From positions 124,001 to 188,000 of the forward strand of contig WHUX01000056.1 in assembly GCA_015179025.1 (NCBI GenBank): 64,000 nucleotides of DNA. The letters run 5' to 3'. Under the pieces are notes generated by a model. That model did no database searches. It worked only from the letters and a program-made list of their open reading frames with translations, and had not been told where the DNA came from. Position numbers and translations under genes: made by a program. Source of the stretch: Terfezia claveryi. Taxonomy: Eukaryota > Ascomycota > Pezizomycetes > Pezizales > Pezizaceae. How positions within the stretch are numbered: the stretch's first letter is position 1; the number at the start of each line of letters is the position of its first letter. Below, in pieces: positions 27,501-63,257 of this stretch.

Positions 27501-27651
27501 AGCTTACCAATATATGGGATCTAGACCAGGAGTCAGAAGATTTTCACCTTACTAGCCCTTTAGGCCTAATCCTACATGGCCCCCCCACAAGGTGAAAACA
27601 GCCTATCAGGAGATTGATGTTAAACAATAAGAGTCAGCTGCTCTCCAGGTT

Positions 27652-28236: not shown

Positions 28237-28370
28237 CATGATCTGGTGGATGACAAGAAGAAGACCAGGAATGGTCACAAGAGTGGTTTGACTCATCAGA
28301 TTCAAGTTGGTTAGAACTAGAAGATAATAGAAGCTCTCCAGTCATTACAAATGTAGTTAATCTGGAAGAA

Positions 28371-31250: not shown

Positions 31251-31279
31251 TAATTGCTAAGTGAATAAGAGATCATGAG

Positions 31280-33142: not shown

Positions 33143-33205
33143 TGTACATAACCCATCTCCCCTGTTTATTTCTTAGGATGGAGTTTTTGTCTAAACAGGG
33201 AGGCA

Positions 33206-37800: not shown

Positions 37801-38014
37801 TGCACATGTTTCACTAATGACAATAGTCGGATCATCAACGCCAGATGGCCCAGAGGGCATGGTGCGCATTGGATTGCCATCAACCAATCATGTGATAAGA
37901 ATTGCGGACATAGAGGGTATGGCACATCTAATCCCGATCCATGATGAAGAGCTATATATTGTAAATAACTGTATTGATCTACATACATGGAATGATATTC
38001 ATGATGGAAACTAG
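34829..38014 (+). pseudogene. Plavaka transposase
   Basis: Starts MNPPKTH with a C2H2-type finger (CPWCKHMYASWGAYANH then ENKHPDKH), as in other Plavaka proteins. Then an acidic region, FQDNILMSSPADSPTSR, SDFYYHNIVDCIKYLLRQ, a MNTASWWWDQQ block equivalent to the family's 'MHTG-WWW-TQ', GDTLHTLHLGMLSHMMKWVQ around the RNase H-fold core, and YSTEICEVSHKPLKDVYRWT near the C-terminus. About 1000 residues across several short introns. Breaks: TAG at 34927, frame changes near 35730 and 36020, TAG at 36620, TGA at 36942, TAA at 37214. Plavaka belongs to the EnSpm/CACTA group of DDE transposases. Family call from motif order, from memory. Confidence 0.82.
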
Positions 38015-38352: not shown

Positions 38353-38372
38353 TACTAGTCCTATACTCCAAT

Positions 38373-42321: not shown

Positions 42322-42834
42322 TATATCTGTGTATTCGGGGGTACAAAAGAGTAAGTGTAATATCCACACTGACTAAAGGTTGCAAATCGAAGGATCTGAG
42401 GTTTGGGACAGTAAGTTTGCTTGTATATGTATGTTCCTGAGGGTACGAAGTAGACGAAAAATAGACTGATCTCAAGCATTGAGCTCTACAACAAAGTATA
42501 ATTTATTGTTTATCTGTATCCTCATCTGTTAGCTCATTCATAATAAAGGGAGTAACAAAAAAACGTTATCTTAGTATTACGCCACATTAGCCTATTTATA
42601 GCAAAAAAATCATACAAGGAAAATACTCCGTAGAGATACACATAATTCTAAAACAAATACCCCCTAGTGTGCTCAGTTGACATTAAAAAAATACACAAAG
42701 AAAATATCTCTCACATATGCTGTAGACATCCAAAAACAACACAAAAACGAAATACCTCTTGCTTCAGGCTGTAGTCATCTAACAAACATACAAGCAAAGA
42801 TGCAATAAAATACACAATCAAAAACAAAAGTAGT
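42322..42834. other. hAT copy B spacer upstream of the H3-like gene, up to the copy C insertion
   Basis: 513 bp, no ORF. Would hold the H3-like promoter. Contains the AAAGTAGT target (42827-42834) used by copy C. The spacer continues at 54390-54563. Confidence 0.65.
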
Positions 42835-43592
42835 TAGTGTGTGCGTCGGCCCGAGTCGACGCGAGTTTTCCTACTATTTTTCCTACTCGATACCGACTCG
42901 CGCCGAGGCCAAATCCTAGGAAGCCGACTCACGCCAACTCGCTGACTACTCGGTGATCGACCGAGTAGTCACCAAGCATTAGTCACCCATGTTTCATCCC
43001 GTGCTTTGTTTGAGCCATTTGTACTCCTTGTCACGGATTTGTCTTTTCTGTCACGGATTGCTCTTATCGTTGCTTCTTAAAGGGATTGCTCTGCCTGTCA
43101 CGGATTGCCCCACCTGTCACGGATTTCTCTTTCTGTCATCCACTTGTTCTTTGTTTTCTTTGGTTCACTTCTATAATCTTCACCGGTCGGGTTACTTATG
43201 TGACTTAGATTCATTCATATTGCATTCTCAATTTCTGCATACTCCTACTCCCTCTCAAGGAATCACCGTCTATCTCTATTGCATGTACATAAAAACCTAA
43301 ACTAACCGAGAAATTCCCAAGCAACATACCCCAACACCAATCCCTACCTTTGTATAAACCGTGACATCATATAATTCTCAACTCAGCCCTACACCGCTCT
43401 TTTGCAGCCCAAAACAGACAAAACTAATCCATTAAAACTTCTCCCCTCACATATATCACCCAAAACAAATGAAAACCTAAATGAAAATGTACTCCTACAC
43501 ACTCCACATTACCGAACCTGCAGGAATAATTACCCACCAGCATGCTCCACATGGACATACACATCAATCCCCACCAACCATTACCTACCCTC
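42835..43592. other. hAT copy C end beyond the transposase
   Basis: Terminal repeat, GC-rich subterminal repeats around CGAGTCGACGCGAG and ACCGAGTAGTC (42835-42980), then several copies of TGTCACGGATT at 43015-43140, then AT-rich DNA to the transposase stop. No gene recognised. Confidence 0.7.
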
Positions 43593-46500
43593 TCATACCT
43601 TGTAGTTCCTACGCTGAGTAGGTCGCAGTTTTTTCTGAAACCTGCTTGCCATTGATGGCGTCAGACTCACCGACTGTGATGCACGGCGCTTCCCGCTTCG
43701 ATATGGAGTTGATAGGGATGGTGTTTCTTCTTGCCCCCGCAATAGACTTCGATGGAACGAGTTCGACAAACCTGCTGTAGAATCTTCTGTGAAACTATGC
43801 GATGGGCTCGTATTGTCGAACGCTGAGTCTTCCAGGTCATTTTGGAGGTACTCCTCCATCACATTGTTCCCATCTGTGTCCATGTCACAATCTGTATCTG
43901 AATCCGTGTCCATCTGTCCCTGTACGGCATCTAGGGATTGTGGTAACATACGGCGGAGGAAGTCTGCGTCATAACTGAGAGCCTGTCTCTCCAGCAGTAC
44001 CTCACCTTCATCCAGATCAGCTATACCTTCTTCTACATGTGCTGGCGCAATTTGGGCCTCTGGGGTTCCGTATTTGGCGTGTATGGTATCCCAGGATTTG
44101 GTCAACATCAGCGCTGTTATCATCTGGTGACCCATTCTGTTGCGTCGGTACGGCAAAATATCCCGAGCACTGCTGAATATTCGCTCTACTGGCACAGATG
44201 TAAGTGGAATACTCAATATGTCCCTCGCCATTCGTGCCAGCGCGGGATATTCATTAGCATGGACTTTCCACCAGGAGAGGGGACATTTCCCATTCAGTGT
44301 TGTTACTGGCATGGATAGGTATCTTTTGATCTCTGGTACATCCTCCGAATGCACTGTTGTACGCTCTTGTAGTTGACGCATGATATAGGATTGTTCTCCA
44401 TCATTGACTTGTGTGTTATGAAGCTGGGGTTCCGGCGCGTACTTGGCGTAATTATGATCAAAATAATCTTCGAACTGAACTCTGATTACAGAATTTGGTA
44501 AGAATTGGTTTTCTGTTTGTCACGGAAAATCTCGTGTCACGGAAAAATCTCGTGTTACGGAAAAATCTCGTGTCACGGAAAAATCTCGTGTCACGGAAAA
44601 ATCTCATGTCACGGAAAATCTTGTGTCACGGAAAATCTCGTTCCACGGAAATCACATGGGTCAAAATAGGATACACAGATTGAATTCATACGTACTTGTA
44701 ATACTCCGCGTATGCAATAGTGTCCCTGTTCTGCTGCATCCCACTTGGATCTTGGACTGTGAGATTTCCCCAATCTATGTACAAGGATAATTTCTTCGAA
44801 GGATCAAGGATGGTCGCCAGGTTGTAGATGAGAGATTGTTTTTCCGTCTTAGAATAATACTTCTTGAAGATCTGCTGACACGCTTTGGTCGCGGAGAGAA
44901 ACCCTGGAGCCCAGGTAGGACTAGCCGGAAGTTTATGTATACGTTTCCGCTGTTTTTCAATGTGGTCGAAGATGTCATTGTAGATGAAGAACGCATTGTG
45001 TATGGTTGCATGGTGCCCTGTAGAGATAGCATGAGTGTAATCCGACAATGGTTTCAGGAAAATAGTAGCCTCCTGAACTTGGTTCCACTCTTCTTGACTC
45101 AACCACAACTCGGAGTACTTGCTCTCTGTTGTAGCTAGAGAGATTCATTGCTCAATGTAGCATTGGAGCCTCAATGCTCGGGTAAGCATTTCAAAGGTTG
45201 AGTTCCACCGGGTTTTCACATCCTGGATGAGGCCCATGGGTGATCGGGAATCAGTTTGGAGTTCCTTGAATTGTGCCAGGCGTTGTGGGCTGGCTACTAT
45301 AGCCTTACAGAGCTCTCGAACCTAGATAAACGTTAGCAATAGGATTCCGGGACGCGTCTTGGCCTTCCATGACATATCCGCCATTCCGTGACATGTTTGC
45401 CTTTTCATGATCCACCTTTATTGAGCAGCCCGGAAGATGACTTACTTTGCAGACAGATGGTGCGAATGTACCTGGAGCATAGTTCTGCAATGCTCTGATT
45501 GAAGACTCAATGGGAGGGGTGGACGAGGCAGTATCCTCATTATCTGGGTTTGACTTGAGTTCTTTCATAAACTGGTTGCTAACCAGAGCAATTACGTGTG
45601 CGAGGCAGGGAAGACGGTATTGCTGTGGGTCCCATTTAACACCGAATACAGTACTTTGTAAATGCTTAGCCAACGCCGTATTGACACTGGCATTGTCTGA
45701 AACAATAGCTAGGACTCGGTTCGTGATGCCATATTCCCGAATTAACTTCCCTAGCTGGTTACCCAAGTGAATGGCATTATGAGCTTCTCCCCCTAGGTAC
45801 TGGAATCCGATCGTATGTTGGCGCAACTGCCAGTCCTGGTCAATAAAATGGAGTGTTGTGCCCATGAACACTAACTTGTTTGGAGAAGTCCAACAGTCCG
45901 TAGCGAGGTGGAGGAATGTATCTTCCGGGAGGCTTTTTTGAAGCTTCTGTTGAACTTCGGCGGCATAATGGTGTATACTCCGGCGAAGTGTTGTTGCACA
46001 GGGTATATTGATTCCAGATCTAAGGAATTTCAGGAGATGCTCGAACTGCGGATGTTCGATAGTTCGGAAAGGTAAATTTGCGGCAATTACAGTTTTCATG
46101 AGTTCGTGTTTGAACCCATCATCACTATATTGCAACTGGGGGGATTGTGCAGCTGCAGGTATTGCCTACGTGTAACGTGAGCCTGTCTGCTCTATTAAGT
46201 AAGGCAGGGTACGGATTATATAATTACCTTCCCAAAAAGGGTTGAAATGTCCTGATCCTTGCGCCCACTAGCAGCCCGGCATTTCCCCGAGGTGAGATGA
46301 CATCTCATATGTGTGGTGCCCATATTGAATGCACTAGGGTGTTGTAACGTACCCTTGCAAGTTAAGCAAAATATGAAAGGCTCACCGCTGTGGATCTTAG
46401 CGCCTTGTCCAAAATGGGCCCAGTGCGCCGCCATTCACAGCTTAGAATCCCATCGGGGTGGGTTAATATTGTTACTCCGCGTTTCTTTAGCTAGATTGTC

Positions 46501-46614
46501 ACGGAGCTTGCCCGCCCACTCGGTAGTTTCCCACCATTCATCAAAGGGTGCAGATTTCTCTGCTTCCCACTGGAAAGCTGTTCCGCCTAGTATTCTGCTG
46601 AGAGTGGAATCCAT
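43593..46614 (-). pseudogene. hAT transposase of copy C (two TGA codons)
   Basis: Four exons: 46614-46228, 46135-45446, 45321-44692, 44474-43593 (862 codons). Introns of 92, 124 and 217 bp keep frame. Exon 1 has a BED-type finger, FCLTCKGTLQHPSAFNMG then HMRCHL. Exon 2 has FLHLATDCWTSPN and LAIVSDNASVN, the first two acidic positions of the hAT RNase H fold. Exon 4 carries the hAT dimerisation block: YPALARMARDILSIPLTSV then ERIFSSARD and KSWD. A D/E/S-rich tail ends RRNYKV. TGA at 46437-46435 (CGA in copy A) and 45147-45145 (probably TGG, as copies A and B have TAG) would stop translation. The ATG used in copy B is lost; the next is at 46614. Confidence 0.92.
44515..44655. repeat. TGTCACGGAAAAATC minisatellite inside transposase intron 3
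   Basis: Seven to eight near-identical units of about 18 bp built on TGTCACGGAAAAATCTCG fill most of the 217-bp intron of copy C. In copy B the same intron has fewer, decayed copies (TGTGACACCATTTT, 61835-61880). Confidence 0.85.
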
Positions 46615-46890
46615 TGGGGTCTCAAGAACTATGGGCACAATTGGAAATAGAGAGAAGTTCGAGTATAGGGCTACCACTGCAAGATGGTCTGTAGTAATAA
46701 CAGGTTTGGCAAGGCAATAGGGAAGAGACGCCTATTTATTCACATTCTGAGAGGTTAGGGGGATGTCACGGATAATGCATGCTTGTCACGGATTCGGTGG
46801 GGGACATTGGCTTGCGGTCCTCTAGATACCTGAGGATCTTTCCATGATAAGGCCAACCTATACATAGATCAAATACTTCATTAAGAACCG

Positions 46891-47954
46891 TCAATCATCC
46901 TGTAGCGCATCTAAAGCGCACCAAACCCAATCCCAATCCAAACGCGTGAACGCGCCATCATTCCAAAAAGGGTCCACAATCTCATCGTGGCCATCATCTG
47001 AGGTGTCATCATGGTTATCATCTGAGTCCTCTGAGGTGTTGGATGACCTCGAGAGCTCACTTGTAGAGATAAGGCTTTCACTACAGCAGGACGATAAATC
47101 GCTATACCCACAATCGGTAGGACTGCGGTCGGCATTGTCCTCGTCTTCAGAGTCATGCTCCACTTCGGCCTTAGGGCTATCAATGGGGCTGGGACTGTCG
47201 GCGATATCAAGTTCGGGTTGGTTAAACCTTCCATCTGGCTCTGATATATTGTCGGGGATATTTGTCAAATCCAGTTGGAGTATAATGCATCTCAATGGCC
47301 AATCAGGGCTCTCGGTGAGTTGCAAAATCTCTCGAGGTCTACATATGGTTAGCCTGCCGCTCTGTCTATATGCAAGAATTAGAAAGATACCTTCTTGAAG
47401 GCCGAAGCCAGACCTCTTGCCCACAACATAGTACTGTTATTCTAGGTGGGGGATGCCATTTTGCGGATATATACACAGGATGCCGGATGATTGCGCCATC
47501 AGGGATCCGGTGGGTCTGGGAGAGTATCTAGGATAAGGTAAGTCGGGACCCCAATGTTTCGGCGCAGTAGTTAACTTACTGACGGGAACCGCCAACCTTC
47601 GCATAAGCCCCATGATTCTTGGCTGCCAGACAGGTAATATTGAAAAAGGGTAACCCATAACAAATCATAGAGAGTATAGTCATCCAGGTAAAAGATTTGT
47701 GCACTGCTGTGCATGCTCATGGGGAATACCAGGTGACACCGATCGAACCAAATCCTCTCTAGAAGCTCCATGGCTACCGCTCGGGAGAGAATCTTAGTGG
47801 GGTCGAAACGGTCCACAACCAACTGTGTAGACTGGTATCTTACCAATTCCGTACCACGTAGACTAAGGAAGCATCGTAGCCCAAAGGCATCTCTCCACGG
47901 TTGCCGGAACTCTTCGAAAGCGAATTGATCTTCAGGATTGTGGTATTCCGCCAT
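46891..47954 (-). CDS. hAT cargo gene 2: 315-aa protein of unknown function
   Basis: Three exons, 47954-47580, 47515-47391 and 47338-46891 (948 bp, in frame, no stops). Introns of 64 and 52 bp have GTAAGT/CAG and GTATCT/TAG borders. Start MAEYHNPEDQFAFEEF, supported by the aligned ATG in copy B and its ATA remnant in copy A. Middle: VDRFDPTKILSRAV, IFYLDDYTLYDLLWVTLFQY, RIPDGAIIRHPVYI and VLCCGQEVWLRPSRR. The last exon has EILQLTESPDWPLR and LDLTNIPDNISEPDG, then a D/S/E-rich stretch and a W-rich end (DPFWNDGAFTRLDWDWVW). No family recognised and no signal peptide or membrane segment. It lies upstream of the transposase on the same strand. Conservation of this frame in three copies implies function for the transposon. 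Confidence 0.8.
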
Positions 47955-49563
47955 GTTGCAAAGTTGATATGACCGGTGACAATTACAATGCCGATCAACT
48001 ATATATAAGCAAATCTCCAAAAATCAGTTGTGGTGAGAAAGCCTAAATGGCAATGTCCTGTTTTGGTACTTTGGCAACCTCCTGCCCTTAGCGTTGGAAG
48101 ACCAAAATAGACTACTTCAGAAGGTAAGCTGGCTGGCTTTAGTCTCGGGAAAGACCGGCATAGCCCGTCTGGGTCAGGACAAGACATCTGTGAGAAAATT
48201 CATGACAACATCCGTGATAAGACATCCGTGACAAGACATCCGTGACAAGTCACATTAGGAAAAAAAAAAAAAAACATCCGTGACAAGACATCCGTGACAA
48301 GACATCCGTGACAAGTCACATTAGGAAAAAAAAAAAAAAAAAACATCCGTGACAAGATAACTCATATGTGACAAAATGAAATATCCGTGACAAGATAAAA
48401 TATCCGTGACAAGGTAAAATACCTGTGACAAGATAAATATCTATGACAACATAAGTATATCATAAGCTACCACCAAATGGAACTACCATCCTTCTCCACT
48501 CCAGCCAGGTGTACGTAGGACCTCCAACTTGGTCCATTATAGTACTGTCTATCCATGGGTCGATGGCATAATCTATCCCCATGTAATGGATGAGGTGACG
48601 AGGCGGATGGGGTTACGACGTGCTTTGACCTCAAGACACGGTAACGCGACAAAGCGATAATGGAAAGCTCATCTGACCAGTTGAATATTTACTAGTTGTT
48701 GAAAAGCACCGTTTACGTTGGCACAGTGCGTAGGTTCAAAGCACCACACAACCCCATCCACCTCACATTCCCATCTATTACGTTAAGAGTTAGTTTACCT
48801 AGCTAGTGCTGGGGACATCCCATCGACCTATTAATTATATGGCATTGATTCTCTACGAGGCTTGTGCCAACCAGACTAGGCATTGATCACTTCCTGAGGT
48901 ATAGGTCGAGGCAATGCAGGCAGGTTAGTGTCACAGTTCCGAAACATGTAGCACATGCCTATGTCCGAGGGACTGACCAGGGACATTGTTTGGGATTAGT
49001 TTGGGCTAGTGTCTGCTGGTGCCAGATAAATTCCGCATGTCCCCACCTCGTACTCACTGAATTTACTTCCTGTCCTCCATTATCTGCATCTCCTACTCCT
49101 GTCATTTCACAAGGTTTACTCACAGATATACTTTATTACTCCACCACACATTATGCGGAACAATTCGAGTAGTAGGCAAATGGCTGGATATTCAGCGAAT
49201 AGGTATGACTTTCTCATACTTTTTTGCTTGCCCCATATGAGGTTGCGTACATATCCCGCGTCATTTGAGTAGGTGCGATAGCCATGTGGGCTTGTCCATA
49301 CTGCGCGGTTCCAATGAACAGATGACAATGATCATATTTTCCTGTTACCTTGTAGCGGTTCACGTTTGAAGCGCCTGGCAACCACACTTGCTGGTGCTGG
49401 AAACAGATCTGCAGCGAGAAACGGGAAAGGGCGTAGCGGTATTGTGTGATAACTCACACGTGAATTGACATGGCCTTATTACGGCTTGCAGCTAACCTTT
49501 TTACATCCAAACTTTTAGTGATTATCAAACCCGATACGAGTGCGAAATCAACCACGATACCCG
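47955..49563. other. Central divergent region of hAT copy C
   Basis: 1.6 kb between the divergent starts of gene 2 (minus) and gene 3 (plus). The left part holds a CATCCGTGACAAGA minisatellite (48185-48450) with two A-runs. The rest has no convincing ORF and should contain the two promoters. Copies A and B have the same layout. Confidence 0.65.
48185..48450. repeat. CATCCGTGACAAGA minisatellite
   Basis: About 14 units of 13-16 bp with core TCCGTGACAAG, interrupted by two copies of TCACATTAGG plus an A-run. The core is the inverse complement of TGTCACGGA found elsewhere in the element. Confidence 0.85.
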
Positions 49564-50045
49564 ATGCTAGAGGTGCCAGCAACACCGAGCGAACCCTCAG
49601 AGGACGGAGAACAATTCAGAGATGGTAGGGTGGTTTTTGGCGTACTAAACATGGAGGTACAAGAGAGCAATACCGAGGCAGGGGTTAACAAAGAGAATGA
49701 GGAGCCTCTGTTTCATACCTCAAGGCAACCCCTATACCCGCCCTTTGAACAATCCCAAATTGAACAACTTCCCGCATCATTTGACACCCCCCTTCTCGGC
49801 AGCCAGAAAATTCCCCGTTGACTGTTTCTTTGCCTGCTGCTGGGACTATTATCGCAAGGACAACAGAGTCCAAAGAGCGGTCACGCCGGCGACGCAAGAT
49901 TCGCAAACAAAGGCGATGGCAAAGGCAGGTGCAGGAACGAGAGACGGAGGAGGTCGCTGGAGGGGGGGGGAATCTTACTATTGACATTGGGGCACGCTCT
50001 TCTCATTTTCATTTTAGCCCGATATCGTTCAATGTCACCAGTTAA
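49564..50045 (+). CDS. hAT cargo gene 3: small protein with KEN motif and basic C-terminus (one frame change)
   Basis: Starts MLEVPATPSEPSEDGEQF; copy B has MVEVPATPSEAETEG. Conserved pieces are NMEVQESNTEAGVNKENEE (a KEN motif, also in copy B), Y-PFEQSQ-E then SFD, and after the frame change SPLTVSLPAAGT, SKERSRRRRKIRKQRRWQRQ, NLTIDIG and SSHFHFSP. The N-part and the basic C-part are in different frames, with the change at a C-run (49787-49792); copy B needs the same shift at its own C-run. No known domain. The basic region could bind DNA or act as a nuclear signal. First gene of the H3-side cluster. Confidence 0.65.
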
Positions 50046-50719
50046 ACCATGGACTATTTTATCATACGTAGATTTGAGTGTAGTTGGATTTCATAAAACA
50101 AGTAAGAACTTATTAGTTTGGTTGAAATACCCCTCGCAAGAATTTAAGGTGCACGATCGTCGTAACGCTAGTCGCATGTCCGTGTTCGGTTAACCACATC
50201 AAGGTTTGCTTGTATACAAAGAATGTATTCTTTTATTTGCACGAACTCGGTATTGTTGGTCAACTTCCGTTTATCTTCAACTTTCACCGAATCGTCAGCA
50301 TTCCCACTGAGAATCGGACACATTTACATGTGTAGTACGATAAGCAACGGTATGCCTATCCAAGTCAGTCACGAGACTAGGCATGGAGGTCGTCACGGAG
50401 GCCGAATTGAAAAGCCTGGTGCAGAAAGTTAGCTCAATTCACTAACGAAGAATCACAGACACCTCCTTCTGCATAACAGGCTGTGAAGATTAACCAAGGC
50501 GTAAGTCGTTGTTCGTTGTCACAGAGGTCGTGTCGGGAAGCCTGAAGTGGCAAGAAAGCATTCACTAATGAATTCCATAACCCGCTATGAAGTTACATAA
50601 GAGGTATGTAGTCAAGGTCGTATGTCACGGAGCCTGTTAGGGAGGCTGTCACGGAGGTCGTTTCGGGGAGCGTGAAGTGGAACGACTGTTCACTAATGAA
50701 GATTCTTTAAGTATCCACA
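50046..50719. other. Spacer between gene 3 and gene 4 in hAT copy C
   Basis: 674 bp with several GTCACGGAGGTCGT / CACGGAGGC repeats (50375-50690). No gene. The matching spacer in copy B (56126-56723) has the same type of repeat in decayed form (CTCCATGACATC, 56385-56445). Confidence 0.65.
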
Positions 50720-52154
50720 ATGCCGTCAAAAAGAAAGACGCAAGCCGAATTAGCAATCAAGCGCAAACCCAGCTCGTCACCCGAACCTATTCCGAAAAAA
50801 GCCAAGCCAACAGGCACAGCGAAGACAAGAAAGACCAGAGCAGAATCACCAATCATCCCCCCACCCGCAAGGAATCCATATGCCATGTATGCTGACTTCA
50901 ACTGGGGGCCGTGGGAATTTAATCCGGACACGGAATTTAGTGGTGGGAGGAAGGCAACGGGGCTCTCTATACATCCACACACCAAGAAAATTCGGGAACA
51001 ACAGCAGAAATTGCTTGGACCCCCCTTGGCGTGGGAGCGAGCCAAGGATTGGAAGCGGCAAAAGGTCAACAGGGATCTCAAGGGCGGGATCCAAGATCCC
51101 CACCAGGCTACACACATTGGGAGGCCAATCGGTACCCTAAGATGCATGTTAAAGCATGAGGAATTCGGAAAATTACAAACACTTGTGCAAAGGACTTGGG
51201 AGGACACGTTCCAGCGCAAGAAGGCCTATATTCTATACCAATGGTATGAGCTGTCAGACGAGCAGAAGAGAAGGTATCTGGAATTGGAGGACCACAAAGA
51301 CCTTCCGAATTGGCAAATTCCTCGTCGAGATTTGCCTAAAACAGAGGTGCAGGGACCTAGGGTAGTGCCAACCAGACTAGCTAGGGTACAGCGCGTGCAG
51401 CAGTTCGCTGTGGTCATTAGCGTTGTACCCATAAACCGCCATGCGTATGCAAAATTTGAAGAACCAATCGAAGGTGACGCAGGACACAAGACTAGAGCGC
51501 ACGAAGGCGCATTACCTAAAACAGAGGTGCAGGGACCTAGGGTAGTGCCAACCAGACTAGCTAGGGTACAGCGCGTGCAGCAGTTCGCTGTGGTCATTAG
51601 CGTTGTACCCATAAACCGCCATGCGTATGCAAAATTTGAAGAACCAATCGAAGGTGATGCAGGACACAAGACTAGAGCGCAGGAAGGCGCATTATCAATA
51701 GCTGACCAGGAGGAATTAGCCGAAGGCGGTGCCGACGATTGCTTAAGTGATGAGGATGTTGGGACCAACATGGAAGAGGTAGGTGCATTCCTCGCAGGCT
51801 CGTGCCATTCCATCATCTAAATCCCAGAATTTCACCACTCGATAGGACTCCGATGACAAACCCAACAAGGAAGATGATGATGAGGATACAGGGCTATGGC
51901 GCAAATGGGAGGCTTTGGATGTTTCTTCGGAAGAAGAAGCTCAACTAACTGAGGCCGACTCGAACGAACGAAGACCGAAGAAGCCCGTCAAGGCCATATT
52001 AAATGAAGGACTTTTGTCAGGGAACACAGAAGATGAGGACTATCGGGACTCCAGCTCGGACGAGGAGGAGGACAAGGATAAGGACGAGGAGGAGGACGAG
52101 GATAAGGACGAGGAGGAGGACGAGGATGAGGATGGGGATGAGAATGAGGATTAG
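50720..52154 (+). CDS. hAT cargo gene 4: 455-aa protein, basic N-terminus and long acidic tail
   Basis: Exon 1 50720-51778, intron 51779-51845 (GTAGGT...ATAG), exon 2 51846-52154; the splice is confirmed by copy B. N-terminus: MPSKRKTQAELAIKRKPSS, then KAKPTGTAKTRKTRAES; copy B has four full RAELA repeats here. Middle: PYAMYADFNWGPWEF, KKAYILYQWYELSDEQKRRY, which faintly recalls the last helix of an HMG box. Next, a 60-residue module duplicated in tandem (51331-51690). Exon 2 is acidic (DDEDTGLWRKWEAL, DVSSEEEAQL, then a D/E/K run of about 35 residues). Acidic tails are typical of histone chaperones; with an H3-like gene next door, a chaperone or loading partner is a reasonable but unproven idea. 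Confidence 0.75.
51331..51690 (+). repeat. 180-bp tandem duplication inside gene 4
   Basis: 51331-51510 and 51511-51690 differ at only a few bases. Each encodes TEVQGPRVVPTRLARVQRV, then QQFAVVISVVPINRHAYAKF. Copy B has one copy only (QQFIVVINIVPINRRAYARF at about 55240-55290). Confidence 0.95.
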
Positions 52155-52896
52155 GGTGAGTTAGATGATCAGGGTGTGGATGAGGTTTAGGATGCGGGAA
52201 GAACGTAACTATTACACTGATGATGATGATGATGATGAAGCAGGCCAGGGCATGCACAATGGGGGAGTATTTCGTTTTCGTTTTATTGTCACGGATTCAG
52301 AGCTTGTCACGGATTCAGAACTTGTCACGGATCCCATTAATACTCATTCCTTAACCATTTCTTAAGCGTTTTTTGAGATTGAATTGTACCCACTATTTCT
52401 GTGTTTTTTAGTTTGTTTGTTTTTTGGAGTTTCTCTGTGTTTTGGATAACTAGTAGTCGATGCTAGTTCACAGTCTAATGATCGAGGCTGGGGGGTATTA
52501 CTTGAGTTCCGTTGGAAAACAAAGGTATGTTAGCTGGTTCCTCCTTTTGTTCACCGAGATGACTGATGACGGCAAATGCAGTTTATTGGGGATGGAGACG
52601 AACAATGAATTACACTTAGTTCTCGAGTTCTTTGTTTTGGAGATGGAGATGAACAAGGAATTACACTTTGTTCTTAAGTTGTTTCGTTGATTTTCAATGC
52701 ACTTCCGCCCCTCACGTGACCTAGAAGCAAATATGGATAGATACATATAGAGGCAAACTTCCACTCCCATTGCTCAGAATCTAAATACACAGGCAAACTT
52801 CCACTCCCATTGCTCAATCCTTTGAACCTCGTGCCTCTGCAACATTCTGACGGAGCGGAAATAACAGGTCCTATAAACCAGAGACAAATACACATA
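52155..52896. other. Spacer between gene 4 and the H3-like gene in hAT copy C
   Basis: 742 bp. TTGTCACGGATTCAGA occurs three times (52288-52330). A 29-bp direct repeat with AGGCAAACTTCCACTCCCA is at about 52751 and 52791, just upstream of the H3-like ATG. No gene. Confidence 0.65.
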
Positions 52897-53599
52897 ATGG
52901 CAACAACCAAAACAAAACCGAGAAACATTAAGACGATGGGGGGCCAGCAACGCAAGCCGAAAAACATAAAGACGATGGGGGGCCAGAAACTCACGCCCAA
53001 AAAGACGAAAGTACCCCCTGCTCAAGCCGCGCCCAAAAGAGGAAAGTGGCCCCTGTCCCAAAAACGCGGGCTATACGGGTGCAAAAGAAGCGAATGAAGA
53101 GGAAGGGGGGTAAGAACTCCGGAGTCCAATCCCACTTCCTTTGAACATGGAATACTAAGTCCCATGTCAGTGTCAATTGTGCAGCAGATCAAGAAACAAC
53201 AGTTCAGCGCACAACTAATCATACCGAAAACTTCCTTCCGACGGTTATGTCGGGAGATAGTACAGGATGTGAACCTTAAATTCAATAACATTCCTAACAT
53301 ACTGGGTAGACGTACAAATGTGGACAGAATTGGGATTATGGCCACCAATGCCCTACAAACGGCTACAGAAGCATACCTACATGAGTTTTTTACAGGTAAT
53401 AAGTCATACGTCGCAGGTAAAATTTTGTCGGGGTGATCCTAACATGGCCTATGGAACAGCAATCAACCTATTGGCAACCCAGAGTGGGAACACAAACCCT
53501 CCACGTCAGACAATCCTGCAAAGGGATGTGACGTTGTGGCGTCAAGTGGAAGCAAATCGCCTGTGCGGGGGTAATATGCCGATGAACCCTGCTGGCTAG
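52897..53599 (+). CDS. hAT cargo: divergent histone H3-like protein
   Basis: Exon 1 52897-53109, intron 53110-53170, exon 2 53171-53395, intron 53396-53459 (branch CCTAAC), exon 3 53460-53599. The start MATTKTKPRNIKT resembles the H3 tail start, with a repeated basic NIKTMGGQ. Fold: GVSIVQQIKKQQF (alpha-N), AQLIIPKTSFRRLCREIVQD (alpha-1), a loop longer than in H3, then NALQTATEAYLHEFF (alpha-2), PPRQTILQRDV-LWRQ (loop 2/alpha-3). Canonical H3 has LLIRKLPFQRLVREIAQD, ALQEA-EAYL and RVTI-PKDIQLARR there. The longer loop 1 recalls CENP-A. Exons 2-3 are open, but the tail exon changes frame once near 53040; otherwise translation would have to start at ATG 53094. It would act in chromatin. Fold assignment strong; role unknown. 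Confidence 0.88.
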
Positions 53600-54389
53600 A
53601 GGCTAGGCCTAGTTTTTTGGTGTTTTTTTTTTGGTTGTGTTATTCTTTGGTTGTGTTTTTTTTTGGTTGTGTTATTCTTTGGTTGTGTTTTTTTTGGGTT
53701 GTGTTTTTGTTTGGTTGTGTTTTTCTTTGGTTGTGTTTTATATTGAGGATATGGAGGCTAGGGTTATTATTTGGGTTATGTTATTCTTTGGTTGTATTTT
53801 ATGTGAGGGAATAGAGATGTTAGAATTGATTTGTGGGATTGGCAGCAAAGAGTAGTGGGGTTAGGTTCGTGAAGAAGGTTGTGATCGAGGATGGAGTAGC
53901 AAATAAAATAGAAGGGGACGTTGAGAGCATGAGGGGACGAGAAAACGTAACGATTTGCGAGAATTGGTGACAACATTTGACAATTCCGTGACAACTTAGA
54001 ATAGTTAAGTGACAACGCATCAGTAACAACGATTCCGTGACAACGATTCCGTGACAACGATTCCGTGACAACGATTCCGGGACAACGATTCCGTGACAAT
54101 GATTCCGTAACAACGAGCGATCTGTAATAAAGAATTGTTACAAATTGTAAGTATACTAAAGGGATTACGATGCGAATAGGCAGTATGGTGTCTAAAACAA
54201 GTGGGAAACAAATACCAGTCTGTGAAAAGGAGAGGCTTGGCGAGTACTCGTCGGCTACTCGGAGCGACCCGAGTTTTCCAGAAGAAGTAAAAAGCCGACT
54301 CGCCGGCACGGGGGGAGTAAAAAAAATCGGCCGTCGGCGCGAGTCTTGGTGACTCGGCGCGGAGGAAAATCGGCTCGCTGCGCACGCTA
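53600..54389. other. hAT copy C end beyond the H3-like gene
   Basis: Contains a GGTTGTGTTATTCTTT-type minisatellite (53618-53790), a 14-bp AACGATTCCGTGAC array (53990-54110), GC-rich subterminal repeats (GGCGAGTACTCGTCGGC) and the right terminal repeat. ORFs here are translations of the repeats. Confidence 0.75.
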
Positions 54390-54563
54390 AAAGTAGTAGA
54401 TACAATTAAACCTCAGAAAATTGTTAACGAAAGACCATTCACAGCATCCGTAACAAGTTCTCCATCAGTGACATTTTTTCCATCCATGACAAGTTTTCCA
54501 TCCGTAACATATTTTCCATCCATGACACTAAAAAGAAATCTAAATTAGTTCCCATTCTCCTCC
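54390..54563. other. hAT copy B spacer beyond the copy C insertion
   Basis: Begins with the second AAAGTAGT target copy, then decayed TCCATCCGTAACA / CATGACA repeats. Continues the spacer of 42322-42834. Confidence 0.7.
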
Positions 54564-56125
54564 CTAGTTTGCTTTTTCCCTATCCTCAATATAATTGTCA
54601 CCTTTATTATCATACTTACCCTCATCCTCATCTGCTGGCTCATCTTTCTCCCCATCATTGCCTGTGACTTGCTTCTCACCTTTGTCATCTTTATTGTTGT
54701 CGCTTGTTGTCATCGCAGCACCTTGGCGTAAAATCCACTGATATACTCGTTCATTAACTTCGCAATCATTCTCCTCGGTGGAATCCCTATAGTCCTCATT
54801 TTTGGTGTCACTTGGAAGCAATTCGGCAGGTCTATCTCCACTAGGCACTGACAACACCTTTCCCTATTTGCTGGAGTCGGATTCAGTTGATTGAGCTTCT
54901 TCTTCTGAAGAACCCTCTAAAGCTACCCATCGGCCCCATAGTCCTATATCTTCATCATCATCTTGCTTGTTGAGTTTGTCATCATAGTCCTATCTACTTG
55001 TAAGTAAAGTTCTCAGATTTAGATCAAGCACGAGGAAGCACCTACCTCTTCAATATCCGTCCCAATGTCCTCATCACTTAAGCAATCATCGGCACCCCCC
55101 TCAGCTAACTCCTCTTGTATAGTCTACATCCTGCTATCAATTGCTAGTGGTGTGTTGGGCCCTATATCACTAGTCCCATACCCAGACACTGTGTCACATT
55201 CGGTTGGCTCATTAAATCGGGCATATGCTCGGCGGTTGATTGGCACAATGTTAATGACTACTATGAATTGCTGTACTGCCTTTACTCCTATTGCTTCCAA
55301 CTCAGTATTGGGAATTTTGAATTCAGAGAGCTCTTCTTGCTCCTGTAATTCCAAATAGACTCGCTTCTGATTGTCAGATAGCTGATGCTACTAGTATAAA
55401 ATATATGCCTTTTTGCAGATAAATATCAGATCGCAATTCCTTTGAACTAGTTGTTCAAAGTTGCCTCATTCCACATCGGTTAATGAGGCCCTTTGGGTGC
55501 CTATTGCCCTTCCAGTAGTAGTGGCATGTTCAGCCTCCTTAATCCCTGCTTTGAGCACCCTGTTTACCTTTTGCCTTTTCCAGTCCTTGGCCCGCTCCTA
55601 TGATAGTGGGGGTCTAAGCAGTTTCTTGTGTGTATCTCGAATTTTTTTCATATGGGGATTAGTGAAGGTGCCCTATACCTTCCTCCCTCTACTAAATTCT
55701 ATGTCTGGATTAAACTCTCGATGGCCCTATGGAAAGTCGGCATATTTGGCATAAAGATTCTTTGGAACATCCTCGGCAAGTTCGGCTCTTGGTGTGCTTC
55801 TTGTTGGAACATCTGCAATTGGGGGTGGGTAGAAGGCTAGTTCAGCTCTTGTCCTTCTCTTTGTTAGAACATTCTCAACTGGGGGTGGGATGAGGGCTAG
55901 TTCGGCTCTTGTCCTTCTTCTTGGAACATCCTCAATTGGGTGAGCTAATTCTGCTCTTGTCTTCCTTTTTTTGGGAACATGCTCTATGCGAGTTGTCAGC
56001 ATCTTCACGACCGGGCTGCCTGGTGCTCCTAAGGTTGTCTTTCTTTTTTTCTGCATGGGAGGTTCTGGTACTGGGCTGGTTGGCGCTTTACCAGTTGTCT
56101 TTTTCTTCTCAAGATGGTTTGGCAT
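54564..56125 (-). pseudogene. Gene 4 of hAT copy B
   Basis: Start MPNHLEKKK at 56125. Basic repeats: KKRKTRAELAHPIEDVP, RRRTRAELALIPPPVENV, KRRTRAELAFYPPPIADVP, RSTPRAELAEDVPK; then NLYAKYADF, as copy C's YAMYADF. A single QQFIVVINIVPINRRAYARF module follows. The acidic exon is after the GTAGGT intron: LEGSSEEEAQ-TE-DS and DTKNEDYRDSTEEND, with a longer tail than copy C (VYQWILRQGA then K/D/E-rich). TAG, TGA and TAA codons throughout. The clean repeats make this copy the best guide to the N-terminal domain. Confidence 0.8.
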
Positions 56126-56723
56126 TGCGAATACTTAAACACAAACTTCGTCAGTAGTCTTTCCACTTTAGGCTCAACCTCGTTCCCTTGACACGACCTC
56201 CATGACACCTCTATAACAACCTCCATGACACGATTTTGTAAAACATACATCTTGGTTTTGCTAGTTATTTAGATAGGAATGTCTGTGATTGACATAAATG
56301 ATAGTCAGTGAATAAGCTAACTATCATTCAACTTCAAATTTCTGGACACGACCTCCGTCATAGCCTCTGTAATATCTTCCATGACAGCCTCCATGACATC
56401 CTCCATGACGGCCTTCATGACATCCTCTGTGACGGCCTCCATGACATGGCTTTGGAACACATACCCCGTCGTTATCTTCACTGCAGATTATATAAATAGA
56501 AATCACCATTGAAGTGCTGACGATTCCTTAGAATTTGCAGATAAATGGAAGATGACCACTAAAAACCTCTGTTCATACAAATAACGGAATTCATTCTTTG
56601 TTTACAAGCAAACCTGGATGCTATTAACCGAACACGGGAATGTGACTAGCATCACCATGATACATGTACCTATCATTGTGAATTTTACTTACAGTTAAAT
56701 CTACGCATGAATATATTAGTAGT
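56126..56723. other. Spacer between gene 4 and gene 3 in hAT copy B
   Basis: 598 bp with a repeat CTCCATGACATC / CTCTGTGACGGC (56355-56450) equivalent to the CACGGAGG repeats of copy C. No gene. Confidence 0.65.
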
Positions 56724-57156
56724 TTAATTTTGGTTAACATGGAACGATGTCGGGCCAAAATGAAAATCAGAAGAGCCTGGCCCAATGTCAATAGTAAGAC
56801 TTCCCTCCACAGTGACCTCCTCTATAGCTCCTACTTCCTGCTGCCTTTGAAATCGCTTTTGTTTGCGAACATAGCATCGCCGGGATGACCGCTCTTGAGA
56901 CCACCTTGCCCTTCTTGGGTTAATAATGAGGGGGGGTCAAATGACAGAGAAGGTCGTTCAGGTTGGGAATGTTCAAATAGCAAGTATGGGGATTGCCTGG
57001 GACTTGGACTAATAAAGAGAGGCTTTTCATTCTCTTTGTTTTCAACCCCTGACTCAGGATTGTCCTCCTGCATCTCCACTACTAGTTCCTGCAAAACCCC
57101 CCTCTTATTATCTCCTTCAGTTTCGGCTTCACTAGGGGTGGCTGGCACCTCTACCA
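56724..57156 (-). pseudogene. Gene 3 of hAT copy B
   Basis: Start MVEVPATPSEAETEG. ENKENEKPLF keeps the KEN motif; EHSQPERPSLSFDPP follows. The frame must change at the C7 run (56930-56936) to reach WSQERSSRR, VRKQKRFQRQQE and SLTIDIGPGSSDFHFGP, the parts conserved with copy C. Fewer stops than gene 4. Confidence 0.7.
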
Positions 57157-58666
57157 TTGGACAACGTGACTGATTTCGCACTCAGTATCGGGTTTGATAA
57201 TCACTAGAAGTTTGGGTGAAAAGGAATTAGCTGCAAGCCGGTAATGCCATGTCAAATCAAGTGTGAGTTACTATACAATACTGCTATATGTCCTTTTCCT
57301 GTTCCTCACCGCAGATCAGTTTCCAGCGGGAGAAACCACACACCTTGTGGCACGTGTGTTTTCTACGCACTTCAAATATGACCCGGTTAAGGTAACAGGA
57401 AAATAACGATTATCATCATCTGTTCAGTGGAACCATGCAAAATGGAACAAGCCTACATGGCTATCGCACTTACTCAAATAACATAGGACATGTACGCAAT
57501 ATCATATGGGGCAAGCAAAAAAGTATGGAAGTCATACCTTGACCCTGTAATTTCACCTCTTTGCTTGATAGTCGAATTAGCTGGTATACATTCTTGTAAT
57601 ATAGTAATAAAGGATAGGAGGTGACTTGATGTGGAATGACTAAAGGCTAGGGAGATGCAGATAATGGAGGATGGAAGTTAATCGAGTGGTAGGAGGTGGG
57701 GACACGCGGAATTTATCTGGCCCCAGCAGACCCTGGCCTAAGCTACTGCCCCAAAACATTTCTGGTTACTCCCTGAGACATCCCTAAGTATGTGTTACCT
57801 GTTTTGGAACTGGCTTGGCTTGACCCAGACCCCTTGACCTATTGTATCTCACAAGGAGGCTCATGCAAGCAGACTACCTATACCTCTGCAAGTGATGAAT
57901 GACATTATTGCTAGTAGAGCAATTGAAGGTCGATGGGATGTGAACAACTAGACTATATTAGGATTCATGATGCTTTTGAGAAGATGCATTGACCATTATC
58001 ATATGAGACAGATAGAATGCTTCACCCAGCCTACCTTCTACTGGCTAAACTAACTCTTATAGTATACAACAAAGTATATCAATGCGCACCTTGACCTCAA
58101 CTACATAGGTTGACAATAATCAGTCTATCCCATTAACTGGTCAATGCTGTAGATTATGCCATCGACCTATTGCTTTCGTAGATGCAGTACTATTATGGAC
58201 GAAGATAGTGGTTTACACCAGACTGGAGTATATCAGGATGGTAGTTCCATTTTGGCGGGGTAGCTTGTGCTAAACTTATATGGTCATAGATATTTTTTTT
58301 GTCATGATATTTTATATTGTTATGGATGGCTTATTTTGTCACGGATGTTTGTCACGGATGTGTTGTCATGGATCTTTTGCTGTGTCCCAGGTGGGTCACG
58401 CAGGTCTTTCCCATGACTAATGCGAGCCAGGTACTTCAGATACAATTAGTATTACCTGTGGAGTACGGTAGTCTACTTTTGTCCACTAATTCTAAGGCAG
58501 AATCAGACTAACTAGACAACCTACCAAAAGAGGACATTGCATTTAGGGATTCTTTCCAGAACTGTCATCTGGAGTTTTGCTTATATATAGTTCATCGGGG
58601 TTGTAATTCTCACTGACCATATAAGCTTTACAATGGGCATTGTGCCAACTAGATTTCTATACAAAT
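57157..58666. other. Central divergent region of hAT copy B
   Basis: 1.5 kb between gene 3 (minus) and gene 2 (plus) starts, closely matching 17848-19367. Contains TGTCACGGATGTTTGTCACG near 58335-58370. No gene recognised. Confidence 0.65.
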
Positions 58667-59558
58667 ATGGCAGTATAACACAATCCAGAAGATGAACTCA
58701 GTTTTGAAGAGTTCTGGGAGCAGTGGAGAGACACTGCTGGGCTATAACGGTTCCTTAGTCTACATAGAACAGAAATGGTAATACACTAGTCTAGACAGTT
58801 GGTTATAGACTGATTTGACCCCAATAATATTGTATCCCGAGTGGAAGTTATAGAGCTACTAGAGAGGATTTAGATTGATCGATATGATTTACTGCTCCTC
58901 TTGTGTATCCATAGGAGTCCAGAGATGACTTAGGATCCCTTTTACCTAGCTGACTATACTATGTATGATTTGTTGTAGATTACCCTTTTCCACCATTACC
59001 TGACTGGTGAGGGAGAGGCATGAGGTTTATGTGAAGATTATTGATACCCATTAGTAAGTTAATTATTGCATTAAAACATTGGAGTGCTAACATACCTATT
59101 GTAGATACTCTCCCAGACCTACCGGATCTCTGACAGCAGAATCATTCGGCATCCTGTCTATATACCGGTACAATGGTATCTCCCATCTAGGATAACTGTA
59201 TTATGTTGTGGGCAAGAGGTCTGGCTTCGGCCTTTAAGAAGGTATCTTACTAATCCTTGCATATAGATAGTACGGCAGGCTAATTATGTCTAGACCTCTC
59301 GAGATTTTGCAACTCACAGACAGCCCTGATTGGCTATTGAGATCCAGCATGCTCCAACTAGATTTAACCAATATCCTCGACAATATATTAGAGCAAGATG
59401 GATGCTTTGAGCCTAGAAGTTAGCTCTCACCATACAGCTCAGAGGACTCAGATGATGTCCACAATAACATTGTAAATCCATTTTGGAATGAATGGACGAT
59501 CGCATGCTTGGATTGGAATTGGGTTTGGCGCGCTGTTGATATGCTATGGCATGATTGA
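58667..59558 (+). pseudogene. Gene 2 of hAT copy B
   Basis: ATG at 58667 (MAV-HNPEDE, then SFEEFWEQWRDTAGL). Same three-exon plan as copy C: the GTAAGTTAA donor at about 59053, then RIIRHPVYIPVQWYLPSRIT, CCGQEVWLRPLRR, and LQLTDSPDWLLRS. Ends near DMLWHD with TGA at 59556. Several TAA, TAG and TGA codons. Confidence 0.8.
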
Positions 59559-59833
59559 TAGACTTATTTTATGTATAGATAGTTTTGGGTTATTAAGGAA
59601 AGCACCACAGGTACCTTGTGAATGTCTCCCATAGAATTCGTGACAAACACACGTTATCCGTGACAAGCACATGTTATCCGTGACAAGCACACGTTATCCA
59701 TTACATACTCCAAATGCTCTCAGAATATGTATAAATAGGCCTCTCTTCCCTACTACCCTTCCAAATCTATTATCGCCAACTCCCAGGAAAACAATAGCTA
59801 GACGAACTTGCACTACTAGCCCCATACTCCAAT
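59559..59833. other. Spacer between gene 2 and transposase in hAT copy B
   Basis: Three tandem units of ATCCGTGACAAGCACA (59640-59700). This is the transposase promoter region. In copy A the Plavaka element inserted here. Confidence 0.7.
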
Positions 59834-62800
59834 ATGTCTCTATCTCCAAGTGTGCCTGTATATCAATCAATCCCAATGGTTTTCACTCTCACTATAATAT
59901 TAGGCGAGACAGCTTTCCAGTGGGAAGCCGAACAATCTGTGCCATTTGATGCATGGTGGGAAACGACCGAGTGGGCAGGCAAGCTCCATGACAATCTGGC
60001 TAAAGATCTAAGAAGTAATAATATTAACCTACCCCAATGGGATTCTAAGCTTCAAACAGAAGTACACTGGGCCCAATTCGGACAAGGGGCTAAGATTCAC
60101 AGCGGTGAGCCATTCATATTTTGCTTAGCTTGCAAGGGTACCTTGCAACACCCTAGTGCCTTTAATATTGGTACGACACATATGAGAACTCATCTCAGCT
60201 CGGGCAGGTGCTGCTCTGCTTGTGGGCAAAAGAATCAGGACATTTCAACCCTATTTGGGAAGGTAATTATATAATTTGTACCTACCTGCAATAATTGGGC
60301 ATAGGCTCACGTTACAAGTAGACAACACCTGCAGTTGCACAATCCCCCGAATTGCAATTCAGTGATGATCGCTTCAAACATGAACTCATGAAAACTGTAA
60401 TTAGTACAAACTTACCTTTCCGAACCATCAAACATCCGCAGTTCTAGCATCTCCTAAAATATTTTAGATCTAGGATTAATATCTCCTGTGCGACAACACT
60501 TCACCAGAGCATACATCACTATACCACTGAAGTTCAACAGAAGCTTCAAAAAAGCCTTCTGGAAGATACATTCCTCCACCTCGCTACAGACTGTTGGACT
60601 TCTCCAAACAAGTTAACATTCATGGGCACAACACTCTATTATATAGACTAGGATTAGTAGCTATACCAACATACGATTGGATTCCAGTACCTAGATGGGG
60701 AAGCTCATAATACTATGCACTTAGGTAATCAGCTAGGGAATTTAATTCGGGAATATGGTATTTTGAACCGAGTCTTGGCCATTGTTTTAGACAATGCGAG
60801 TGTCAATGCGGTATTGGCTAAGCATTTACAAGCCAATGTATTCGGTGCTAAATGGGACCCCTAGCAATACCGACTTCCCTGCCTCGCACATGTGATTGTG
60901 CTAGTAAGCAAGCAGTTTATAAAAAAACTCAGGTTGAACCCAGATAATGATGATACTGCCTCGTCCACCCCTGCTATTGAGTCTTCAATCAGAGCACTGC
61001 AGATTTATGCTCCAGGTACATTTGCATGATCTGTTTGCAAAGTAAGTCATTTTCTGAGCTGCTCAATAAAGATGTCATAGAATGGCGGACATGTTACAGA
61101 ATGGCGGACATGTCACGAAAGGCTAATACGTATCACGGAATCCTATTGCTAACATTTGTCTAGGTTTGAGAGCTCTGTAAGGCTATAGTAGCCAGCCCAC
61201 TACGCTTGGCACAATTCAAGAAACTCCAAACTGATTCCCGTATGCCCATGGGGCTCATCCAGGACATCAAAACTCACTGGAACTCAACCTTTGAAATGCT
61301 TACTTGAGCATTGAGGCTCCAGTGCTACATTGAGTAATAGATCGCTCTATCTATGATAGAGAGCAAGTACTCAGAGTTATGGTTCAGTCAAGAAGAATGG
61401 AACCAAGTTCAGGAGGCTACTATTTTCCTGAAACCTTTATCAGATTATACTTATGCTATCTCTACAGGGTAGCATACAACTATACAGAATGCATTCTTTA
61501 TCTACAATGACATCTTCGACCACATAGAAAAACAGTGGAAACATATACACAAACTTCCAGCTAATCCTACCTGGGCTCCAGGGTTTCTCTCTGTGACAAA
61601 AGCATATCAACAGATCTTCAAGAAGTATTATTCTATGACTGAAAAACAATCTCTCATCTACAACCTTGCAACCATCCTTGATCTGTCTAAGAAATTATCC
61701 TTGTAAAAAACTGGGGAAATCTCAATGTCTAAGATCCAAGTGGTATATAGCAGAATGGGGACTATATTTTATACACGGAGTATTACAAGTATGTATGAAT
61801 TCCATCAGCATATGACTATTTTGGCCCATGTGTTTTCTGTGACACCATTTTCTGTGACACCATTTTTTGTGACACCATTTTCCATAATAGAAGATAATCC
61901 GTAATATACAGAAAAACATAATTCTTACCAAATTCACTTCTTAGGGTTCAGTTCAAAGATTATTTTGAACATAATTATGCCAAGTACATGCCGGAAGCCC
62001 AGGTTCATAACATACAAGTGGATGATGAAGAACAATCCTATATAATGCATCGACTACAAGAGTGTACCATAAGCCAATCGGAGGATATGCCAGAAATCAA
62101 GAGATACCTGGCGAATCTGGTAACAACACTAAATGACAAATGTCCTCTATCCTAGTGGAAGGTGCATACTAATGAATATCCCATACTGGTACGAATGGCG
62201 AGGGACATATAGAGCATTCCACTCATATCTGTCCCAGTAGAGTTAATATTCAGCAGTGCTCGAAATATTTTGATGTACCGACGCAACAGAATGGGTCACC
62301 AGATGATAACTGTGCTGATGTTGACTAAATCGTAGGATGCTGTACATGCTAAATACGGAACCCCAAAGGCACAAATTAGACCCGCACATGTACAAGAAGG
62401 CATAGCTGATTTGGATGAAGGTGAGGTAATGCTGGAGAAACAAGCCCTCAGCTATGATGCAGACTTCCTCTGCCGTATGGTAGCACAGTCCCTAGATACC
62501 GTTTAGGGACAGATGGACACAGATTCTGATACAGATTGTGACACGAAAGTAGCTGGAAGCTGGATAATAGACGAGTACCTCCTAAATGACCTGGCAGATT
62601 TAGCGTCTAAGAATACTAGCCTATCACATAGTTTCAGAGAAGATTCTACCTCAGACATGTCCAACTCGTTCCATCGAAGTCTATTATGCGGGGCAAGTAG
62701 CAACACCATCTCGTTTAACTCCGCATCGAAGCACTCGAAAGAACCGTTTATCACAGTCTGTGAGTCTGACACTGTCGATGGCAAGCAGGTTTCAGAAGAA

Positions 62801-62837
62801 ACTGCAATCTACGCAGTGTAGGAACTATAAAGTATGA
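59834..62837 (+). pseudogene. hAT transposase of copy B, full length
   Basis: ATG at 59834 (MSLSPSVPVYQSIPMVF), a longer start than copy C. The BED finger FCLACKGTLQHPSAFNIG, then HMRTHL is intact in the first exon (59834-60262), which joins an intron at GTAATTATA. TDCWTSPN lies near 60590, LDNASVN near 60790, the TKSWD-type dimerisation end near 62330, and the S/D-rich tail ends RNYKV at 62837. Stops such as CCC-TAG at about 60863 and TAA-TAG at about 61338 replace Q or W codons. Confidence 0.87.
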
Positions 62838-63257
62838 GTGGGTAGGGGTGTTGATGTCATGTGGGATATACTAGTAGGTAAGTATTAGTGCAGGTTCTAG
62901 GGAAAATTTCTTTTCTATGTTGGGAGTACTTTCTTCATTTAGGTATGCTATTTTAGTTGTTATATGGGACAGCTGGAGTTTTGAGAATTTCATGAGAAAC
63001 ATTTCTTTATCTATATCTATTGGTAGTTACTTTTTAATTCAGTTTACTTTCTTTTTGATAGTATATGGGAGGGCTGGTTTTATGTGAGAGGGCAGTATAA
63101 GTGGGATCGGAGAATTACTTTACCTCAATCTTGGGATATTGAGATTTGTTTAGACATAAGTATTAGGAATTTGTCAGTTAGTTTAGGTTTCTATGTTTGC
63201 AGAATTAAAGCGATTTGTTTAATGAGAATCAGAGTATGCAGAAATTGATGAGGTATC
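62838..63257. other. hAT copy B 3' flank, cut by gypsy-3
   Basis: AT-rich, similar to the inverse complement of 43150-43590 of copy C. The last 54 bp are repeated at 40781-40834. The terminal repeat is not reached. Confidence 0.65.

Follow-up and report, generated by a model that had tools for sequence, protein, structure and literature searches.

Transposons of the hAT superfamily that carry a histone H3-like gene are already known as a kind from two published reports. In Pyrenophora tritici-repentis, a 5.6-kb hAT was described that comprises a transposase, a central ORF and a gene named "H3L", the 26 very similar copies of which point to a recent expansion and have maybe drifted; open copies, tail insertions and ESTs were recorded, and the protein was judged to be neither H3 nor CENP-A (Manning et al. 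2013, PMC3538342). In six Mycosphaerellaceae, including Pseudocercospora fijiensis, H3-carrying hATs of about 9.5 kb with DUF659 and 8-bp duplications bear one or two H3 genes per element, reported as intronless, and have left hundreds of H3-like copies marked by C-to-T decay, the extra copies all being dead through RIP (Dhillon et al. 2019, PMC6710886). Both groups of elements are interpreted as transduplications (PMC3538342, PMC6710886). The preliminary description of the present locus, which knew of no hAT with such cargo, was therefore wrong on this point. A looser parallel is provided by fungal DNA transposons of several lineages, hAT among them, that carry TET/JBP dioxygenases (PMC12730594): here too an epigenetic-mark gene is borne by a transposable element, but that cargo is an enzyme acting on DNA methylation, unlike H3L, which is a chromatin building block.

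The locus considered here lies in a 64,000-nucleotide stretch of the Terfezia claveryi genome (the window). Like the Pyrenophora hAT, its element has an H3-like gene, a hAT transposase and another ORF between termini, and it shares 8-bp duplications, numerous H3-like copies and C-to-T decay with the Pseudocercospora elements. It differs from the former, in a comparison of descriptions, in its length of 11.6 kb, an additional conserved gene, and its membership of a family with about 100 places, at least six subtypes and measurable purifying selection; and from the latter in three-exon genes, in the 33 of 75 full-length exon-2 places that are open, and in selection between subtypes. A search of the open-licence PMC literature found neither multi-subtype diversification nor selection evidence for such elements, nor an ARTKQ-without-ARK tail or a conserved acidic companion.

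Three hAT copies, A, B and C, and a short derivative are present in the window (Table 1). Comparison of the window with itself showed that copy B is interrupted by element C, which lies in the opposite orientation, and the exact boundary yields both an 8-bp duplication and the termini TAGTGTGTGC at 42835 and TAGCGTGCGC at 54389, which form imperfect inverted repeats; C is therefore an 11,555-bp insertion. The hAT superfamily is characterised by short inverted repeats at the termini, of the TAGNG kind, and element C combines such termini and the 8-bp duplication with a C-terminal dimerisation domain (PF05699 on 43593-44519, E 2.1e-21, 75.9 bits against a Pfam cut-off of 21.4). Matches of its transposase to DUF659 (E 0.00082, 19.5 bits) and to the hAT-like RNase-H (E 0.004, 17.8 bits) lie below the curated Pfam cut-offs of 34.7 and 27, respectively; the transposase ORFs are conserved in other subtypes. 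A second bounded element, that of L010 (C355:1412-12970), has both termini, and no matching target site duplication was found at its ends. The transposase part of copy A resumes at 38353-40530, beyond other insertions. Between the two parts of copy A lie an LTR retrotransposon (24236-33843; 0.64-kb repeats, 95% identical) and a Plavaka transposase region (35157-38014; PF18759, E 3e-30, on 35928-36623), which, like the gene structure, points to a fungal genome. Another LTR retrotransposon, copia-like by eye, occupies 275-5664 (repeats 96% identical), and an array of 34-bp repeats fills 8734-9193 within the short hAT derivative.

Table 1. Coordinates of the hAT copies in the window and of the genes of element C.
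Feature	Position	Strand	Remarks
Short non-autonomous hAT derivative	8590-9365		776 bp, C-like termini, own 8-bp duplication ATTCTATT
Copy A, H3L end	13849-20497	-	decayed H3L at 14181-14504
Copy B, H3L end	41493-42834	-	decayed H3L at 41731-42170; separated from the remainder by element C
Left 8-bp target site duplication of element C	42827-42834		AAAGTAGT, exact match to 54390-54397
hAT element C	42835-54389	+	11,555 bp, between termini and 8-bp duplication
hAT transposase gene region	43596-46731	-	ORFs 43596-44519, 44689-45144, 45148-45321, 45308-46165, 46219-46434, 46438-46731
Accessory gene	46894-48023	-	ORFs 46894-47436, 47369-47527, 47574-48023; conserved
Accessory gene with acidic C-terminal exon	50711-52154	+	ORF 50711-51820, acidic exon 51846-52154
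H3L exon 1	52897-53109	+	basic tail, MATTKTKPRN...; one-base frameshift private to the window copy
H3L intron 1	53110-53170	+	GT-AG, GTAAGA..GTCAG
H3L exon 2	53171-53395	+	alpha-N, alpha-1, long loop 1, alpha-2
H3L intron 2	53396-53459	+	GT-AG, GTAATA..AACAG
H3L exon 3	53460-53599	+	loop 2, alpha-3, C-terminus; aligned with H3 alpha-3, TILQRD / TIMPKD
Right 8-bp target site duplication of element C	54390-54397		AAAGTAGT
Copy B, remainder	54390-62982	-	transposase end rightward

The preliminary description had placed a three-exon H3-like gene at 52897-53599 inside copy C, with homologues at the same place and with identical intron positions in copies A and B. Its coordinates and layout agree with the exon boundaries and GT-AG introns, and the exact duplication on either side of the element confirms the location within copy C. 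H3-like remnants do lie at the matching place in A and B, both on the minus strand; both are decayed, with stops in exon 2, and the identity of intron positions holds for the aligned splice sites with the exception of donor 1 of A. The window gene itself is damaged: exon 1, at 213 nt, is out of phase with exon 2 through a frameshift that is absent from its four nearest relatives (L030-L033), which bear other damage, and because of this the copy in its present state is unlikely to be functional. Among 32 copies (L011 and L039 excluded), splice sites at aligned positions are kept at donor 1 in 21, at acceptor 1 in 29, at donor 2 in 30 and at acceptor 2 in 31, the first of these counts being affected by misplacement of donor 1 in L030-L033, where GTAAGA is actually present. 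In-silico splicing of 23 copies produced a model for nine, seven of which cover the whole fold (L010, L012, L017-L020, L024); the models of L023 and L027 stop early, those of L017, L024 and L027 take another donor, and those of L010, L017 and L018 are open up to the end of the stretch. The 14 copies that gave no splice model are winC, winB, winA, L009, L011, L013-L016, L021, L022, L025, L026 and L028.

Two accessory genes accompany the transposase and H3L. The one at 46894-48023 has matches in L010, L014, L018, L019, L020 and L027 and shorter, opposite-strand matches in L011; no match was found in the available stretch of L023, and none to Pfam above the cut-off. The other, at 50711-52154, has relatives of its main ORF in L010, L014, L018-L020, L023, L027 and L011. 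In the window and in all five loci inspected (L010, L014, L019, L023, L011), that ORF precedes an acidic stretch; the most acidic 40 residues hold 30 D/E against 4 K/R. This gene has no Pfam or PDB match above the cut-off, and an AlphaFold model of the acidic ORF (pLDDT 38) is uninformative. It also contains an in-frame 180-bp tandem duplication, 98% identical, at 51332-51691.

First, by its sequence H3L belongs to the histone fold, albeit in an altered form. The Pfam Histone search that the preliminary description had proposed matched almost the whole PF00125 model in the two spliced sister copies scanned, L019 (E 1.9e-11, 44.7 bits) and L012 (E 3.5e-11, 43.9 bits), against a cut-off of 26.4 bits, which the window exon 2 alone also exceeds, at 31.6 bits; a chance match to histones is ruled out by the whole-fold matches of L019 and L012. 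The L012 protein further matches PDB H3 chains (E 1e-10), and a protein database search with the L019 protein returned 11 candidates, none of them scored, and no hit. AlphaFold modelling of exon 2 alone gave three helices in H3 order at low confidence (pLDDT 64), and a Foldseek search of that exon-2 model against the PDB gave 0 matches, so the fold assignment draws on sequence. With canonical H3 and CENP-A, H3L has in common the histone fold and the motifs from alpha-N to alpha-3, and in some subtypes the ARTKQ start of H3; unlike them it has longer loops and no ARK site. Loop 1 is about 14 residues longer than in H3 and loop 2 four to five longer, and with an identity of 38-43% the protein departs from the near-invariant, standard-length fold of canonical H3. 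In an alignment read by eye (H3 numbering), both L012 and L019 retain R49, R52, K64, R69, R72, Q93, E97 and Y99, and only the first of these two retains R53; the window type has Q49, K52 and K53. The main subtypes have other residues in place of R63 of H3 and of H113, which belongs to the H3-H3 bundle, and given these replacements and the lengthened loops, normal octamers are not assured.

Second, the tail retains one regulatory context of H3 in several subtypes and lacks another throughout. Tail starts in 34 copies, collected with a script that sought a MARTKQ-like pattern specifically, read MARTKQ in 12, MVRTKQ in three, MAGTKQ in six and MATTKT in five, with a damaged or one-change form in three (L042-L044), MPGKQTGRKTIVGA in L011 and MPAKKK in L039; the pattern search gave none in three copies (winA, winB, L028). 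In all 34, the H3L stretches are devoid of ARK triplets in each of the three forward frames. At position 9, L010- and L023-type tails and four of five window-type tails have N, and K9 sits in PKKN in most L018-type tails. Of the contexts of K4, K9 and K27 in the canonical tail (ARTKQTARKS), then, that of K4 is present in several subtypes and ARK in none; since the window-type tail is MATTKT, and L011 and L039 are without ARTKQ, K4 is not universal either. In the host H3 (C153), K9 lies in ARKS, but the motif close to the K27 position is ARKV; as this protein lacks the usual K27 stretch itself, only the K9 contrast distinguishes H3L from this host. That gene, the only host-like H3 found (L002, C153; 1246-1875), has an unusual tail, ARTKQTARKSTGGKAPRKQ followed by IKQQFQQAAHKVARKVAHTSNSG, rather than the usual K18-K27 stretch (splicing by eye).

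A tail with ARTKQ and without ARK, of the K9 or K27 type, could permit an active mark and resist K9-type silencing. Our tentative proposal, to which we give somewhat less than an even chance, is that H3L is a resident, selected gene of this hAT lineage, encoding an H3 variant for nucleosomes that could be marked at K4 and would be poor targets for K9-type silencing. H3L would pair with host H4 and be built into nucleosomes, probably at or close to copies of the element, perhaps with the neighbouring acidic-tail protein as its chaperone, a role suggested by acidity alone. Such nucleosomes could carry the active K4 mark and resist K9-type silencing, which may keep the transposase gene expressed and the ends of the element accessible. 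What is directly observed is the setting of H3L between the termini beside the transposase and two conserved genes, the conservation of its introns, and purifying selection between the four subtypes tested; the selection shows a benefit to the element, not which benefit. It is also conceivable, if unlikely, that H3L works outside nucleosomes as a soluble decoy or histone mimic, its free tail competing with host H3 for writers, readers or chaperones and so weakening silencing. Retention of the ARTKQ tail in several subtypes while the fold drifts, together with the alteration of the fold at loops 1 and 2, would suit a decoy of this kind. However, the fold exon is itself under purifying selection (see below), R69, R72, Q93, E97 and Y99, needless for a tail decoy, are kept in the window protein as well as in L012 and L019, and ARTKQ is missing from three subtypes.

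Third, H3L is a genome-wide family linked to one kind of transposase, with about 100 places in the 72.6-Mb genome. A single exon-2 query gave 104 matches, and a divergent query from L011 added six places, C143 being common to both; the Pfam Histone model gave 40 genome matches, 33 of them at places also found by the H3L queries. Of 104 H3L places, a set compiled by hand from the exon-2 and L011 queries, 46 have an upstream transposase match on the other strand at a distance of 4-18 kb, where about 1% would be expected, and conversely 45 of 110 transposase places have H3L at the expected distance. The remainder (58 of 104 H3L places and 65 of 110 transposase places) have no partner there, for which contig ends and truncation may account in part. 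The preliminary description's alternative, a host gene hitch-hiking by chance, is contradicted by the number of places, the transposase linkage and purifying selection, the first two of which rule out a single hitch-hiking host gene; its idea of a mobile element encoding its own H3 variant gains from the recurrence of the arrangement, introns included, in other copies. Could H3L instead serve transposition itself, by joining H4 in a specialised complex that packages DNA for the transposase or targets it, at the ends of the element or at chosen chromatin? Its linkage to this transposase, the similar constraint on the two genes, and the result that none of the genome's ten distant hAT transposases (27-30% identical) has an H3L hit at the expected place are in keeping with such a cofactor, yet the linkage is equally expected under other readings, and we consider this one quite unlikely.

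Fourth, the family shows constraint between subtypes and decay within them. Related elements, located through H3L, fall into at least six subtypes: window C, L010-type, L023-type, L018-type, L011 (C27) and L039 (C143), the last of which is interrupted by a stop in exon 2. In the first four, each represented by one hand-picked open copy and compared by NG86, pN is below pS in H3L exon 2 in all six pairs (Fisher p 7e-13 to 7e-6), with dN/dS of 0.20, 0.09, 0.09 and 0.24 in four pairs and saturation at synonymous sites in the other two. The corresponding values are 0.14, 0.11 and 0.13 for the transposase and 0.17-0.23 for the acidic gene (in each case for the three of six pairs that are not saturated). 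Across the four subtypes tested, H3L is under purifying selection close to that of the transposase. Within subtypes, pN/pS ranges from 0 to 0.94 (13 pairs), and the changes are mostly transitions; relative to a single reference for each subtype, CpG and CpA are the commonest sites of C-to-T change. This decay is of the RIP or methylation type. Stops interrupt 42 of the 75 exon-2 matches with a coverage of 70 or more of the 76 residues; the other 33 are open. Constraint between subtypes together with decay within them means that H3L is a gene integral to the element, retained as lineages diverged and lost in dead copies. Against L010, element C is 90% identical in the transposase, 75% in H3L exon 2 and 65% in the acidic protein, its left half being near L010 and its right half distant. 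Strict co-descent of H3L and transposase fails here, which suggests that recombination between subtypes produced element C.

It is against this background that transduplication has to be judged, by which a host H3 transcript or gene would have been captured and amplified by chance as a functionless passenger. The decay of many copies, with stops at 42 of the 75 full-length places and changes mostly of the C-to-T kind at CpG and CpA, is what a passenger would undergo, as is a within-subtype pN/pS of up to 0.94, and the Pyrenophora and Mycosphaerellaceae cases are both read in this way (PMC3538342, PMC6710886). But purifying selection in six of six subtype pairs, close to that on the transposase, introns that are conserved and located, by eye, at places unlike those of host H3, and an identity of only 37-44% to canonical or host H3 and host CENP-A in the main subtypes, which makes the capture old, render this account highly improbable, and a simple passenger is contradicted by the between-subtype dN/dS.

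As to origin, the identity of main-subtype H3L is 38-44% with canonical or host H3 and 37-39% with host CENP-A (the host proteins spliced by eye), so that it is hardly nearer the one than the other, and L011 is 31-33% identical to canonical H3, host H3 and host CENP-A alike. A genome search with the host H3 core was strong only at C153 (H3, E 1e-48) and C773 (CENP-A-like, 2e-27), the next match being at 8e-5. The tree unites all H3L with a support of 95; it is unrooted and includes two H3s and one CENP-A, so the nearer parent cannot be told from it. We read H3L as an old branch of the H3 family, probably neither H3 nor CENP-A, which is also the published verdict on the Pyrenophora protein (PMC3538342). 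That H3L was captured from CENP-A and guides the element or its chromatin toward centromere-like domains is scarcely credible, since the ARTKQ tail is of the H3 type and identity to host CENP-A is no higher than to H3, even though TGRKTIVG occurs both at the start of the L011 tail and in the host CENP-A-like gene, KTIV is found again in the tails of L010 and L023, and loop 1 is long. The CENP-A-like gene itself (L001, C773; 1471-2090) has a doubled tail motif, TGRKTIVG / TGRKSTGG, partly common to the L011 protein.

Finally, these findings bear on the two published hAT cases, in which the H3 gene was interpreted as captured by accident and as recent or dead; here the constraint is about that on the transposase. 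A bolder and rather unlikely extension is that this hAT lineage has relied for a long time on an H3 variant of its own together with an acidic partner, forming silencing-resistant nucleosomes in which the K4 site was kept and the ARK sites were shed. If this is true, the published "transduplications" would be relatives or remains of an older chromatin system encoded by transposable elements, and not accidents. A transposable element that supplies its own selected nucleosome component would represent an anti-silencing route unlike that of mark-editing enzymes, and the family would offer a natural experiment on which residues of the H3 tail silencing requires.
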